From positions 186,001 to 250,000 of the forward strand of contig NZ_JAJQXW010000003.1 in assembly GCF_021246445.1 (NCBI RefSeq): 64,000 nucleotides of DNA, given 5' to 3'. Origin of the DNA: Rhabdothermincola salaria (GTDB taxonomy: Bacteria > Actinomycetota > Acidimicrobiia > Acidimicrobiales > Acidimicrobilacustridaceae). The position numbers and the translations under genes are program-made. Numbering within the stretch: position 1 is the first letter of the stretch; each line of letters begins with the position of its first letter. Positions 56,202 to 60,046 of this stretch are shown here, one piece after another. The notes below the pieces were generated by a model. The model was not told the origin of the DNA. It saw nothing but the letters and a program-made list of their open reading frames with translations, and did no database searches.

Positions 56202-56238
56202 CGACGATGGCCCGGCGACGTCTGCCGGGCCATCGTCG
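56202..56238. terminator. Strong hairpin terminator after amidohydrolase
   Basis: CGACGATGGCCCGGC and GCCGGGCCATCGTCG form a perfect 15-base stem with a 7-base loop, 70 bases after the stop and 38 bases before the next gene. There is no T-tract. Confidence 0.65.
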
Positions 56239-56275: not shown

Positions 56276-57592
56276 ATGCGGCTCATCACATCGGCAGTGC
56301 TCTGGATCTCGCTGTACCTGGCCCTGGCCGTGGCGCCGCTGCTCTTCGCCCTGCTCGCCGACCCTCCCCCGGCGCGAGCGTTCTGGACCGAGCTGTCGGT
56401 CGCCTTCGGGTTCGTCGGGCTGGCCCTGCTCGGACTGCAGTTCGCCGTCAGCGCCCGCTCCAACGGCGTGGACGCCCCCTACGGCCACGACGTGGTCCTG
56501 CGCTTCCATCGCCAGATCTCCATGGTGGCGCTGGGTCTGGTGCTGGCTCATCCCATCATCCTCTTCGTCACCGACGCCGCCCCCTGGGGCCTGCTCAACG
56601 TGTTCGACGCACCGTGGAGGGCCCGCTTCGGCGTGCTCTCCGTGCTGGCTCTGCTCGCCATCGTGGCCACCTCGCTGTGGCGGCTCCAGCTGCGCCTGTC
56701 CTATGAGGTGTGGCGGCTCAGCCACGACCTGCTCGCCGTCGTGATCATGGTGGCCGCCCTGCTCCACGTGGAGCTGGTGGGCCACTACGTGGCCGGCACC
56801 TGGCGACAGGTGCTGTGGGCGGTCATGTCGCTCGGCATCCTCGGTGTGCTCGCCTGGATCCGTCTGATCAAGCCGCTGGCCATGCGGCGTCGCCCCTGGG
56901 TGGTGGACGAGGTCGTCGAGCGGGCCGACGACGTGTGGTCGTTGCGCCTGCGTCCCGTCGGTCACGACGGCCTTCGCTTCGACCCCGGCCAGTTCGCCTG
57001 GATCACGGTCGGCCGCTCGCCGCTGCGGGTCACCGAGCATCCCTTCTCGATGTCGTCGAGCGCCGAGGAGCCCGATCTGTTGGAGTTCACCATCAAGGCC
57101 GCGGGCGACTTCACCTCGACGGTCGGCGAGATCCAGCCCGGCACGCGCGTGTTCGTCGACGGCCCCTACGGCGTCTTCACCCCCATCCGCAACGAAGGCG
57201 CCGGCTTCCTGTTCGTCGCCGGCGGCATCGGCGTCACGCCGATCATGAGCATCCTGCGCACCCTCGCCGACCTGGGCGATCGCCGGCGCATGACCCTCGT
57301 CTACGCCAACCAGACGTGGGACGACGTGGCCTTCGCCGACGAGCTCGCCGATCTCGAGCAGCGCCTGGAGCTGCGCGTCGTGCACGTCCTGGCCGAACCC
57401 GACGAGGACTGGGAAGGTGAAGCCGGCTTCGTCACCCACGAGATCCTCGAGCCCAACCTCCCCGAGCGTCCCGACCGGGTGCGGTGCTTCCTCTGCGGAC
57501 CGGCGCCGATGATGGACGCGGTCACCCACGATCTGCTCGCCCTCGGTCTGGACCTCGAACAGATCCACAACGAGGAGTTCGTCTTCGCATGA
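56276..57592 (+). CDS. Ferric-reductase-like transmembrane flavocytochrome (NOX/FRE fold)
   Basis: A 438-residue membrane oxidoreductase. Six predicted helices in the first roughly 205 residues contain paired His residues fit for heme ('RFHRQISMVALGLVLAHPII' and 'LSHDLLAVVIMVAALLHVEL'). The FAD-binding domain has 'HPFSMSS', and the nucleotide-binding part 'FVAGGIGVTPIMSIL' and 'RCFLCGPAPMMDAV' (NAD(P)H binding). This is the eukaryotic NADPH-oxidase/ferric reductase scheme: electrons pass from NAD(P)H through FAD and heme to an acceptor across the membrane. Unlike most relatives it has no ferredoxin domain. GGAGGG precedes ATG 56276. It is the first gene of a four-gene coupled operon. Confidence 0.85.
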   Translation: MRLITSAVLWISLYLALAVAPLLFALLADPPPARAFWTELSVAFGFVGLALLGLQFAVSARSNGVDAPYGHDVVLRFHRQISMVALGLVLAHPIILFVTDAAPWGLLNVFDAPWRARFGVLSVLALLAIVATSLWRLQLRLSYEVWRLSHDLLAVVIMVAALLHVELVGHYVAGTWRQVLWAVMSLGILGVLAWIRLIKPLAMRRRPWVVDEVVERADDVWSLRLRPVGHDGLRFDPGQFAWITVGRSPLRVTEHPFSMSSSAEEPDLLEFTIKAAGDFTSTVGEIQPGTRVFVDGPYGVFTPIRNEGAGFLFVAGGIGVTPIMSILRTLADLGDRRRMTLVYANQTWDDVAFADELADLEQRLELRVVHVLAEPDEDWEGEAGFVTHEILEPNLPERPDRVRCFLCGPAPMMDAVTHDLLALGLDLEQIHNEEFVFA

Positions 57593-57605
57593 GGGAGAGT
57601 CCGCG

Positions 57606-57692
57606 ATGAGGGCACAGCTGACGACCCGGGTGGTGGTGGCGATCACCGTCGTGGTGATCGCCGCATCGGTGCTCTTCGCCCTCGTGCGGTGA
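57606..57692 (+). CDS. 28-residue single-span membrane peptide
   Basis: ATG 57606 starts 13 bases after the flavocytochrome stop, with GGGAGAG at a spacing of 6. The protein has a short basic N-terminus (MRAQLTTR), one helix of about 17 residues (VVVAITVVVIAASVLFALV) and ends in Arg. Its stop overlaps the next gene's GTG as GTGA. The position, ribosome site and clean helix support a real gene that would be missed by normal length cut-offs. It could be a small subunit or regulator of the flavocytochrome, as in small accessory peptides of other membrane oxidoreductases; inferred. Confidence 0.6.
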   Translation: MRAQLTTRVVVAITVVVIAASVLFALVR

Positions 57693-58348
57693 GTGCACCG
57701 GACCGGAGGGGCGAGACGCCGGGCGCCGGGTACCGTGCCACCGTGGCCCGACGATCCGACACTGCGCGCCCTCGTCGTCGACGGGGCGTCATGCGTCACT
57801 ACGAGCGGCCCCTGCACCGGGATCGGCTCTTCCTCCTCGTCGCCGCGTCCTCGGTGCTGGTCACGGTGGTGTTCGTGGCGTTGGTGGTGCTGCTGACCGG
57901 GCTGCCCGACCAGCCGCTGGACTGGCTGCGTCCGGCGGTGCTCGGCCTGCTCGTGGCACTGCTGTCGTTCCGCCTGCTCGGCATGGGGGTCACGTCGTCG
58001 CGGACCTTCCAGGAGGGCCTGCGCGGCACATCCGGCGAGCACCGTGGCGCGCCCGGGGGCGACGCGCCGGTGCCTCACGACTTCGAGGCGACGGGCCGGG
58101 CCGCCGGCGCGGTCGTGGGCCAGGCGCTGCGCGCCACCCGGGCGGCCCGTACCCCTTCGGCTGCCCCTGACCCCGGCCACGCCACCGAGCCGGGGAGCCC
58201 CGCGGAGACCACGCCCACGGCCTCCGCCGACAACGCGCCCGCCACCCCGGCGGCGACCCCACCGAGGGTCGACGCGACCGCCCGCGTGGCAGGCGCCATG
58301 CTGGGCCGCCGGCTGGCGGAGCGACGACGACGACACGAGGAGGGCTGA
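57689..58348 (+). CDS. Two-helix membrane protein with duplicated C-terminal motif, unknown function
   Basis: A 219-residue protein from GTG 57689, coupled to the peptide gene by a 4-base overlap. A basic N-terminus (about 1-46) precedes two helices (about 47-70 and 82-99). The cytoplasmic tail has a motif that occurs twice, residues 133-153 and 195-215 (A-T-x-R-x-A-G-A-x-x-G-x-x-L then Arg-rich), separated by a Pro/Ala/Thr-rich linker. The N-terminal 20-30 residues are low-complexity, so GTG 57743 or ATG 57791 could be the start. No family recognised. Confidence 0.6.
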   Translation: MSAPDRRGETPGAGYRATVARRSDTARPRRRRGVMRHYERPLHRDRLFLLVAASSVLVTVVFVALVVLLTGLPDQPLDWLRPAVLGLLVALLSFRLLGMGVTSSRTFQEGLRGTSGEHRGAPGGDAPVPHDFEATGRAAGAVVGQALRATRAARTPSAAPDPGHATEPGSPAETTPTASADNAPATPAATPPRVDATARVAGAMLGRRLAERRRRHEEG

Positions 58349-59094
58349 TGGACCTGGGACTCGTCGGCAAGCGAGCGGTCGTGGCCGGGGCGTCCTCCGG
58401 CCTGGGGCTGGCCTGTGCCCGGGCCCTGGCCGCCGAAGGGGCCCGGGTCGTCGTCGGGGGACGGTCCGAGCAGCGCCTCGGAGACGCCGTAGCCGCCAGC
58501 GACGGGGCGCTCACCGGCGTTGTCGGCGACGTGGGCACGCCCGACGGCGCCACCCAGTGGGCGCTCGATGCGGCGGCGACCCTCGGCGGGGTCGACATCG
58601 TCGTCCCCAACGCCGGGGGACCCCCGCCCGGCACGTTCGCCAGCACCGACCTCGACGCCTACGCCCCGGCGCTCGACCTCAACCTGTTGTCGACCGTGGC
58701 CATGTGCAAGGCGCTGGTCCCGTCGATGCAACAACGTGGTTGGGGGCGGGTGGTGGCCATCACGTCGGTGGCCGTGCGCCAACCCGTCGCCGAGCTCATC
58801 TTGTCCAACACGGCCCGGGCCGGGGTGACCGGCTTCCTCAAGACCCTCGCCCTCGAGGTGGCCTCCGACGGGGTCACCGTGAACTCGGTGCTACCGGGCC
58901 TCCACGACACCGATCGCCTCCGTGCCCTGCGCGGCGGCGACACCGCCGGGCTCGGCGCCACCGTCCCGGTGGGCGAGGTCGGCCGCCCCGAGGACTTCGG
59001 CGCCGTGGTCGCGTTCTTGTGCAGCGAGCACGCCCGTCACATCACGGGCCACGCCCTGCCCGTCGACGGCGGGGCGGTACAGGGTCTGCTCTGA
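58348..59094 (+). CDS. Short-chain dehydrogenase-like protein with degenerate active site
   Basis: A 248-residue Rossmann-fold SDR. The cofactor loop 'VAGASSGLGLACARALAAEG' and 'VVPNAGGPPPGTF' are normal, and catalytic-type Ser is in 'AITSVAVRQP'. The YxxxK pair is gone: the corresponding stretch reads 'ILSNTARAGVTGF'. A subgroup of FabG-like SDRs shows this change, and may act without the usual Tyr or as a binding protein. ATG 58348 overlaps the previous stop (TGATG). It ends 4 bases before a convergent gene, with no visible terminator. Confidence 0.8.
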   Translation: MDLGLVGKRAVVAGASSGLGLACARALAAEGARVVVGGRSEQRLGDAVAASDGALTGVVGDVGTPDGATQWALDAAATLGGVDIVVPNAGGPPPGTFASTDLDAYAPALDLNLLSTVAMCKALVPSMQQRGWGRVVAITSVAVRQPVAELILSNTARAGVTGFLKTLALEVASDGVTVNSVLPGLHDTDRLRALRGGDTAGLGATVPVGEVGRPEDFGAVVAFLCSEHARHITGHALPVDGGAVQGLL

Positions 59095-59098
59095 GGCG

Positions 59099-60046
59099 TC
59101 AGGGGCCGCGGGCGTCGCCTCGGTCGTGCTCCTGCGCCCGACCTCCGACGGCCGTGCCGTCCGGCTCGTCGTGGAGGTCGCCCCCGGCCGACGCCTGGTC
59201 CGCCTCGTGCCCGAAGGCCGCCAGCAGCTGCCGGGCCACCCCCTGGGCCCGCTGGTCCCGGGCCACGAGCACCGAGCACAGCTCGCGGCGGTCGGGGCCG
59301 ACCCCGCCGCGGGCCACGCCCACCACCTCGCCTCGCCGCCGGGCGGTGACGACGACCGGCCGGCATCCCGCCGGGACCGCGGTGGCCGCCGAGTGTGGCT
59401 CGTCGTCGGGCCACTCCCCCGATTCGAACGCAGCGGCCTCTGGATCGAGGAGAGACGAGACGACCAGCTCGAGCTCCACCCCACCCCGCCCCACGACACG
59501 GCGCGGGCCGAAGGGCACATCGGCCACGGGGACCCAGCGGCGGTGGGCGTCGCCGTGGCGTTGCTCCTGGAGGAGGTGGACCCGGTCGAAGGGCACCTCG
59601 ACCACGTAGTCGGACAGGGCGACGAGGGCGGCCGCCCGGCGATCGTCGAGGGCGTCGTCGGCCAGGGTGACGTGGGGTTCGAAACCGAAGGTCAAGGTCC
59701 GCTCGAGGGGACCGACGAACACGTCGTCGCGCAGTCGGCGCACGATCTCGCCGCCCTCGTCCTCGTGCACGCCGAGGTGCACCGTGGCGGTGGCGGGGGC
59801 GAAGGTCGTGGGCGGTCCGAGGCGCGCCACGAACGGCGAGTGCCGGGCGGCCGCCTGCCGCAGTACGGCGAGGGCCTCGGGGAGGTCCTCGACCCGCACG
59901 TTGACCGGCGGCACGAGCGTGAGGTGGGGAGGAACCCTCTCGAGGGCGCCGTCGCCGAGCGCGCGCCGCAACCCGTCGATCTCCGAGTCGAGGGGGGCGG
60001 GCACCAACAGCGCCACCCCGAGGCGCAGCCGAGGCACGGACGCCAC
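59099..60046 (-). CDS. 2H phosphoesterase (LigT-like) fused to GNAT acetyltransferase domain
   Basis: A 315-residue two-domain protein. The N-terminal half (about 1-185) is a 2H phosphoesterase: the twin HxT motifs are 'PPHLTLVPP' (His41, Thr43) and 'FEPHVTLADD' (His125, Thr127), as in LigT-type RNA 2',3'-cyclic phosphodiesterase/2'-5' ligases. From about 195 it continues as a GNAT-like fold ending in the acetyl-CoA loop 'LVARDQRAQGVARQLLAAFG' (about 260-279). A disordered acidic tail of about 35 residues follows. It could process cyclic phosphate ends of RNA or nucleotides and acetylate the same molecule, which is inferred. GTG 60046. Confidence 0.72.
   Translation of the reverse strand: MASVPRLRLGVALLVPAPLDSEIDGLRRALGDGALERVPPHLTLVPPVNVRVEDLPEALAVLRQAAARHSPFVARLGPPTTFAPATATVHLGVHEDEGGEIVRRLRDDVFVGPLERTLTFGFEPHVTLADDALDDRRAAALVALSDYVVEVPFDRVHLLQEQRHGDAHRRWVPVADVPFGPRRVVGRGGVELELVVSSLLDPEAAAFESGEWPDDEPHSAATAVPAGCRPVVVTARRRGEVVGVARGGVGPDRRELCSVLVARDQRAQGVARQLLAAFGHEADQASAGGDLHDEPDGTAVGGRAQEHDRGDARGP

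Follow-up and report, generated by a model that had tools for sequence, protein, structure and literature searches.

A single-helix micropeptide conserved beside a NOX-type flavocytochrome of Rhabdothermincola salaria and its relatives

Introduction

Respiratory oxidases include tiny single-helix subunits such as CydX, whose genes directly follow that of the catalytic membrane subunit. To our knowledge no such subunit has been assigned to enzymes with a ferric-reductase domain, and we know of no peptide that goes with MsrPQ. The present analysis concerns a gene pair in a 64,000-nucleotide stretch of Rhabdothermincola salaria DNA (contig NZ_JAJQXW010000003.1, positions 186,001 to 250,000 of the forward strand; hereafter the window), where a flavocytochrome of the NADPH oxidase (NOX) and ferric reductase type is followed by a peptide frame of 28 residues. 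The pair resembles the CydX arrangement in that the gene for a one-helix protein lies directly 3′ of the catalytic subunit, but the enzyme belongs to another superfamily. Phagocyte flavocytochrome b558 (NOX2 plus p22phox) likewise pairs its NOX-type core with a small membrane protein that is a separate chain, although p22phox is far larger than the window peptide and has several helices. It also carries a proline-rich region (excerpts of PMC3591440; the other papers are likewise cited from excerpts), whereas the window peptide has one hydrophobic stretch and no proline. The comparison is one of features, with no homology claimed, and an identification of the peptide as p22phox was rejected, several helices and a cytosolic proline-rich region having no counterpart in its 28 residues.

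Bacterial NOX homologs have been described as single-chain enzymes (PMC11564096). SpNOX, the NADPH oxidase of Streptococcus pneumoniae (structures 8qt6, 8qta and 8qq7), shares with the window enzyme a six-helix haem domain, four histidines and a C-terminal FAD/NAD(P)H domain, but is reported to be independent of a p22phox-like subunit (PMC5676040). In the MsrPQ/YedZ system a haem protein of the ferric reductase superfamily also hands electrons to an outer partner; MsrQ differs in taking them from quinones, in having no FAD/NAD(P)H domain and in its partner MsrP (in part after PMC11564096). Among the matches listed in a search of the open-access literature there was no description of a peptide partner of a bacterial NOX.

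A conserved peptide gene

The two genes and the sites within them are as follows.

56276..57592, + strand: flavocytochrome of NOX/ferric-reductase type, 438 amino acids, six-helix haem domain plus FAD/NAD(P)H domain
56507..56509, + strand: His78, haem ligand candidate, with His92 (56549), His150 (56723) and His164 (56765)
57593..57599, + strand: Shine-Dalgarno-like GGGAGAG ahead of the peptide ATG, read from the sequence
57606..57692, + strand: single-helix peptide of 28 residues, putative small subunit of the flavocytochrome, on the basis of downstream homologs, co-occurrence, natural fusions and the ratio of nonsynonymous to synonymous substitution rates (dN/dS)

The peptide, MRAQLTTRVVVAITVVVIAASVLFALVR, has its ATG 13 bases 3′ of the flavocytochrome. 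It finds no match in Pfam or NCBIfam, and four of its relatives give nothing better than E 0.097, far below the cut-offs. A preliminary description of this DNA had singled it out as a hidden gene, and the comparison with relatives bears this out. A query alignment of six flavocytochromes, run against 84,980 species with one genome per species, found 149 relatives, and the best 80 were retained; two of these loci are cut at a contig end (L082, L120), leaving 78 for counting. A homologous peptide is encoded downstream on the same strand in 73 of the 78, across six phyla. It was recognised by a hidden Markov model (HMM) of 54 seeds in 72 loci and by a scan for hydrophobic frames in L070. Scores of the HMM are non-independent for these loci, which together with the window supplied its seeds; the hydrophobic-frame scan uses no HMM. 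Downstream of a Paracoccus plasmid relative (38% identity) a peptide-like in-frame stretch follows right after the stop (L162:4138-4353), where the incomplete annotation table lists no separate gene.

Of the 78 entries in the table of peptides, which include both cytochrome forms described below, six come from loci other than those of the scan (two of the six repeating scan loci). The peptides that follow the flavocytochromes of genomes G005 and G001 are MRHRLTTALVAAITATALVASVLFAWYVNS and MRHVQVNRLAVIVTVVLLLGCLAFAAAQG, the latter starting with GTG, and some cyanobacterial forms reach 45-50 residues. All 45 aligned peptides share M1, R2 and F24. In peptide pairs of 70-95% DNA identity, differences at codon positions 1, 2 and 3 number 3652, 1428 and 7487, with a median dN/dS of 0.14 (604 overlapping pairs from 75 peptides, 541 with finite dS). 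The peptide codons are under purifying selection, and the frame, whose loss from relatives would have told against the preliminary description, is conserved. A Shine-Dalgarno-like site stands ahead of 19 of 29 peptides of non-cyanobacterial type and 16 of 49 of cyanobacterial type. The gap to the enzyme is at most 60 bases in 55 of the 78 entries, 61-200 in 11 and longer in 12; some peptide genes lie 300-1144 bases from the enzyme or elsewhere in the genome.

Co-occurrence was followed in 194 genomes from the cyanobacterial class that includes G628, in which the Fischerella locus L098 lies, with thresholds of E up to 1e-4 for the peptide and up to 1e-60 for the enzyme. Both are found in the identical 35 genomes, in 37 copies each, two genomes having two of both. 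Thirty-six of the 37 pairs lie on one contig with the peptide downstream, and the pair of G625 lies on different contigs. Full coincidence would have a chance of 10^-38.6 if the genomes were independent; as they are related, the figure gives scale only. A partial enzyme match with an internal TAA (G811:C1:1687195-1688157) still has the peptide downstream. Five scan loci have no peptide next to the enzyme; three of their genomes encode it elsewhere, and in the other two (L101, L140) it was not found. Conversely, no hydrophobic tail helix and no recognised peptide accompany any of the 13 more distant flavocytochromes from the order (26-33% identity); a hydrophobic frame overlapping the end of one of them (L012) looks like chance.

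The flavocytochrome gene is rare near the window's lineage. It occurs in seven of 397 genomes of the window's order, and a class-wide search at E 1e-60 found it, among 296 genomes, in its own genome only. In the actinobacterial order of G821 the enzyme is present in four of 200 genomes (the G976 copy is a fragment with no peptide match) and the peptide in six (E 1e-3), three of them adjoining the enzyme; the other three matches are weak (E 2e-4 to 8e-4), lie inside long frames and look like chance, and the set is too small to weigh much.

Identity of the flavocytochrome

Pfam recognises Ferric_reduct (67.5 bits), FAD_binding_8 and NAD_binding_1 in the window protein, and SpNOX is the best solved match by sequence that also covers the haem domain (E 2.5e-19). 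The pairs His78-X13-His92 and His150-X13-His164 agree with the His-X12/14-His filter for helices 3 and 5 given in excerpts of PMC5676040, X13 being counted as inside the 12-14 range and the helices being placed by AlphaFold2 (AF2) on a paralog. The same source's FAD motif H(PSA)F[TS][LIMV] is found as HPFSM at residues 255-259, and GIGVTP at residues 317-322 agrees with another of its bacterial NOX filters. By sequence the window protein passes three filters for a bacterial NOX, a group for which superoxide production from NAD(P)H is a further criterion (PMC5676040). All four histidines (78, 92, 150 and 164) are invariant in 53 of 53 aligned rows.

The position equivalent to NOX2 His-119 was counted four residues past the second haem histidine of helix 3. 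It is occupied by Leu96 in the window protein, which at this point departs from the eukaryotic NOX signature His-101, His-119, Thr-178 and Gly-179 (NOX2 numbering; excerpts of PMC3591440). The enzyme is a six-helix, four-histidine flavocytochrome of SpNOX type. A second one is encoded in this genome (L034, G000:C2), 44% identical to the window copy.

Natural fusions, topology and structure

Six flavocytochromes (L033, L034, L035, L154, L155 and L156) are extended at the C-terminus by 35-37 residues into a helix with the peptide's end pattern. The tail of L156 matches the peptide HMM at E 0.0096 in a search of its own genome, where an unrelated place matches slightly better (E 0.0035); three other tails lie below HMM detection, and the case there is the alignment. 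In a second kind of fusion the peptide has 131 residues and, after the helix, a c-type cytochrome-like domain with a CxxCH motif (L072:2247-2639 and L159:2825-3217; CASCH and CADCH), which resembles Cytochrome_CBB3 and Cytochrom_C at scores short of the curated cut-offs. A search of the order for this form found it in G399 alone, one of 298 genomes. A tree of 104 enzymes, made with the tails removed by a quick method and with several long branches, unites the fused forms (support of 100 in the Shimodaira-Hasegawa-like approximate likelihood ratio test), the cytochrome forms (98) and the distant forms (95) each in one clade; the remaining rows comprise 77 whose peptide is free and six that have none next to the enzyme. 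In the same tree L090, titled Candidatus Gracilibacteria, groups within Cyanobacteria near Hydrococcus and is probably a mis-binned contig.

Since the helix is joined to a cytoplasmic domain at its start in one form and to a c-type cytochrome at its end in the other, it should run from inside to outside, N-terminus in and C-terminus out, beside the enzyme. The charge pattern agrees with this orientation, the N-terminal side being the more positive in 60 of 75 peptides and the less positive in four.

The AF2 model of the natural fusion L034 has a mean predicted local distance difference test (pLDDT) score of 91.5 and a predicted template modelling (pTM) score of 0.89; its tail helix spans residues 446-471, with pLDDT of 70 over 441-450 and of 92-97 from 451 on. 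A model of L117 in which the stop was read as a glycine tether gave pLDDT 91.9 and pTM 0.87, with a helix at 441-469 (83-98) and values below 50 at residues 436-439. SpNOX superimposes on the L034 model with Z 33.2 and a root-mean-square deviation of 2.6 over 391 residues (22% identity). The alignment covers residues 2..439 and leaves the last helix uncovered, so that this helix is an addition to the SpNOX plan.

Superoxide dismutase neighbours

In 23 of the 80 scan loci, all under cyanobacterial titles and on several branches, the enzyme gene is preceded on its own strand by one for an Fe/Mn superoxide dismutase (SOD); 73 of the 80 loci hold at least 900 bases upstream of the enzyme. The gap is within about 40 bases in 22 loci and 185 bases in L104. 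The identity of the SOD rests on Pfam for one representative and on BLAST for the others. All 23 have a lipobox-like cysteine, so the SOD is expected outside the cytoplasm, and membrane-tethered MnSODs are known in Cyanobacteria (excerpts of PMC8346466 and PMC8193680). On a named cyanobacterial SOD locus, the literature searched yielded no usable paper other than PMC8193680. These neighbours suggest extracytoplasmic superoxide as the product. On the simplest reading the flavocytochrome would export electrons to O2 and the SOD would deal with the resulting superoxide.

Other genes recur near the enzyme. A DUF2459-like gene lies 18-42 bases 3′ of it in L081, L085, L087, L091, L098, L101 and L133 and farther off in four other loci, the Pfam score of one representative being below the cut-off. 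Genes that look by eye like sorbosone dehydrogenases recur within 5 kb in L107, L143, L112, L095 and L091, and the Paracoccus plasmid has an annotated one (L162:4222-5511).

Neighbouring genes in the window

The other features around the pair are these.

57689..58348, + strand: third frame (gene 3), likelier start at 57743 (57743..58348), outside the module
58348..59094, + strand: short-chain dehydrogenase/reductase (SDR) without YxxxK (gene 4), outside the module
56203..56237, + strand: 15-bp perfect hairpin, terminator-like, without a T run, between the amidohydrolase gene and the flavocytochrome

The hairpin region folds at -44.9 kcal/mol (z -4.7, computed on a 71-nt stretch). The four frames of the preliminary description are all present on the + strand at these coordinates, and both the 13-base gap between genes 1 and 2 and the 1-base overlap between genes 3 and 4 are confirmed. 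An overlap of 4 bases between the peptide and gene 3 exists if the GTG at 57689 is taken as the start, but a same-genus ortholog favours the GTG at 57743, the equivalent of its own likely start (window VARRSDTARPRRRRGVMRHYERP, relative MARRDPPRERRRRGVLRHYDRP). Alignments of gene 3 begin at residue 14 or later in a synteny comparison of 19 loci and at residue 7 or later in a search of 61 genomes, two cases running through stop codons. From these alignments and the ortholog start the likely gap between peptide and gene 3 is about 50 bases, and the overlap is probably a start-codon artefact.

The 19 loci, found in the 61 genomes besides the window's own, were compared with the window proteins, 13 with wider flanks and six as returned. 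An amidohydrolase gene adjoins gene 3 with no flavocytochrome between them in 18, the 19th (L045) being cut before it, and genes for PPK2, LigT or ATP synthase follow on the 3′ side. The SDR then follows gene 3 in G004 only (75% identity) and was not found in the other 18 loci. From the adjacency of gene 3 and amidohydrolase in relatives, the flavocytochrome and peptide would lie between two old neighbours in this genome. The G001 ortholog of the flavocytochrome (52%) has its peptide and not genes 3 and 4; gene 3 is there on a different contig from the enzyme, and no SDR ortholog is seen at either place. Among 97 flavocytochrome loci checked, 67 of the 80 from the scan holding at least 1500 bases 3′ of the enzyme, gene 3 occurs in the window's own and is missing from the other 96; SDRs lie near ten of these, all of them distant (at most 32% identical). 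G005 is uninformative on both genes, its contig ending 286 bases 3′ of the enzyme. On synteny the four-gene operon is rejected, and so are gene 3 and the SDR as redox partners. The tight coupling had been read as the mark of one complex or pathway; genes 3 and 4 are not in the module, and the flavocytochrome is kept without them.

The SDR does have no Tyr-x-x-x-Lys at the usual place, as the preliminary description observed, yet its closest solved relatives, 5vps and 5idx, have none either. The gene 3 family (window 57689-58348, L037-L055) encodes an unnamed two-helix protein with a duplicated motif, between amidohydrolase and PPK2/ATP synthase genes, for which Pfam gives no match at E 0.1. 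Farther on, at 59099-60046 of the - strand, a 2′-5′ RNA ligase-like domain is fused to a GNAT acetyltransferase domain.

A putative seventh-helix subunit and its alternatives

We are confident of a joint model in which the peptide would be translated and be a dedicated small membrane subunit of the flavocytochrome, and the enzyme would send electrons out through the membrane. Computation shows conservation of the peptide, selection on its codons, its co-occurrence with the enzyme, both natural fusions, the SpNOX-like architecture and, in part of the Cyanobacteria, the adjacent lipoprotein-type SOD gene; translation in this organism, binding, orientation, a role near the outer haem and the acceptor are inferred from these. 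The peptide would span the membrane as one helix, N-terminus in the cytoplasm and C-terminus outside, and would pack against the haem domain, adding a seventh helix to its six. Electrons would pass from cytoplasmic NAD(P)H to FAD, through two b haems and to the outside of the membrane, most likely to O2 to give superoxide, possibly to a metal or to cytochrome c. The helix would probably stabilise the haem domain or shape the exit from the outer haem.

We judge it unlikely that the peptide, instead of being a stoichiometric subunit, acts as a regulator or as a factor for assembly or insertion. Its very small size and its separate gene, at times distant from the enzyme's, would suit such a role, but its permanent joining in one clade to the enzyme, and in another to a cytochrome-like domain, is more in keeping with a lasting subunit. 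The single complex of four gene products proposed in the preliminary description is far less probable still. It has in its favour the common strand and tight spacing in the window, and against it the conservation of gene 3 (once with gene 4) without the flavocytochrome, the occurrence of flavocytochrome plus peptide without gene 3, and the probable artefact in the 4-base overlap; in this one species the genes might nevertheless be transcribed together.

The acceptor admits two further readings. We regard it as rather doubtful that the enzyme is a ferric (metallo)reductase and that its link with SOD reflects iron limitation, under which an iron-free SOD and a ferric reductase would be needed together. 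Pfam does name the haem domain Ferric_reduct, and Leu96 stands in place of the eukaryotic NOX His-119 (PMC3591440, in excerpt). Fur-box-like matches of at least 14/19 occur upstream of three of the 23 SOD genes as against 2.2% of shuffles, but the mean best score, 11.9, hardly differs from the 11.5 of shuffles. No iron transporter was recognised among the recurrent neighbour clusters, three of which were tested by Pfam, and the lipobox-like cysteine of all 23 SODs would place them outside, where superoxide would arise. It is improbable, too, that the true acceptor is an extracytoplasmic cytochrome c or other redox protein, O2 reduction being a side reaction. The cytochrome c-like domain on the L072 and L159 peptides would fit such an acceptor, as would the reduction of cytochrome c by SpNOX, which is SOD-insensitive and likely direct (PMC5676040), and the authors of an SpNOX structure leave a non-oxygen acceptor possible (PMC11564096). 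However, the cytochrome form is one small clade (two of 104 tree rows, one of 298 genomes), its Pfam scores (23.8 and 20.9) are below the curated cut-off of 27, and the window peptide stops right after the helix.

Several observations weigh against the joint model of a subunit and electron export to O2. The weakest of the 72 HMM matches are poor (L097, E 0.14; L072, E 0.0043), the L160 peptide has E 0.064 and no clear start codon, and no peptide was found in the genomes of L101 and L140 or seen at the Ruegeria relative L163 (34.7% identity). The 35 genomes in which enzyme and peptide co-occur are related and are not 35 independent events. Searched among 26,683 fragments, the peptide HMM matches two of the six fused tails, and weakly (L033, E 0.013; L155, E 0.044), and the pLDDT values give no position for the tail helix relative to the haem domain. 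The SOD adjacency is seen in Cyanobacteria only, not near the window's genes, and the peptide could act on assembly alone.

Significance

A wider picture, to which we give somewhat less than an even chance, is that of an oxidative-burst enzyme widespread in bacteria, in which a SpNOX-like core and a dedicated single-helix subunit at the outer haem together form a two-part NOX. In part of the Cyanobacteria it would form an operon with a lipoprotein SOD, which would convert exported superoxide to H2O2 on the outside, and the outer end of the helix, extended in evolution by a cytochrome c, would redirect the electrons.

A large branch of NOX enzymes is apparently not single-chain and goes with a micropeptide too small for usual annotation. 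The pair may offer a minimal model of what a small membrane helix does for a NOX core, and the enzyme is a candidate for the source of extracellular superoxide from Cyanobacteria and Actinomycetota. For studies of such enzymes a practical rule of co-expression follows: the peptide should be included.

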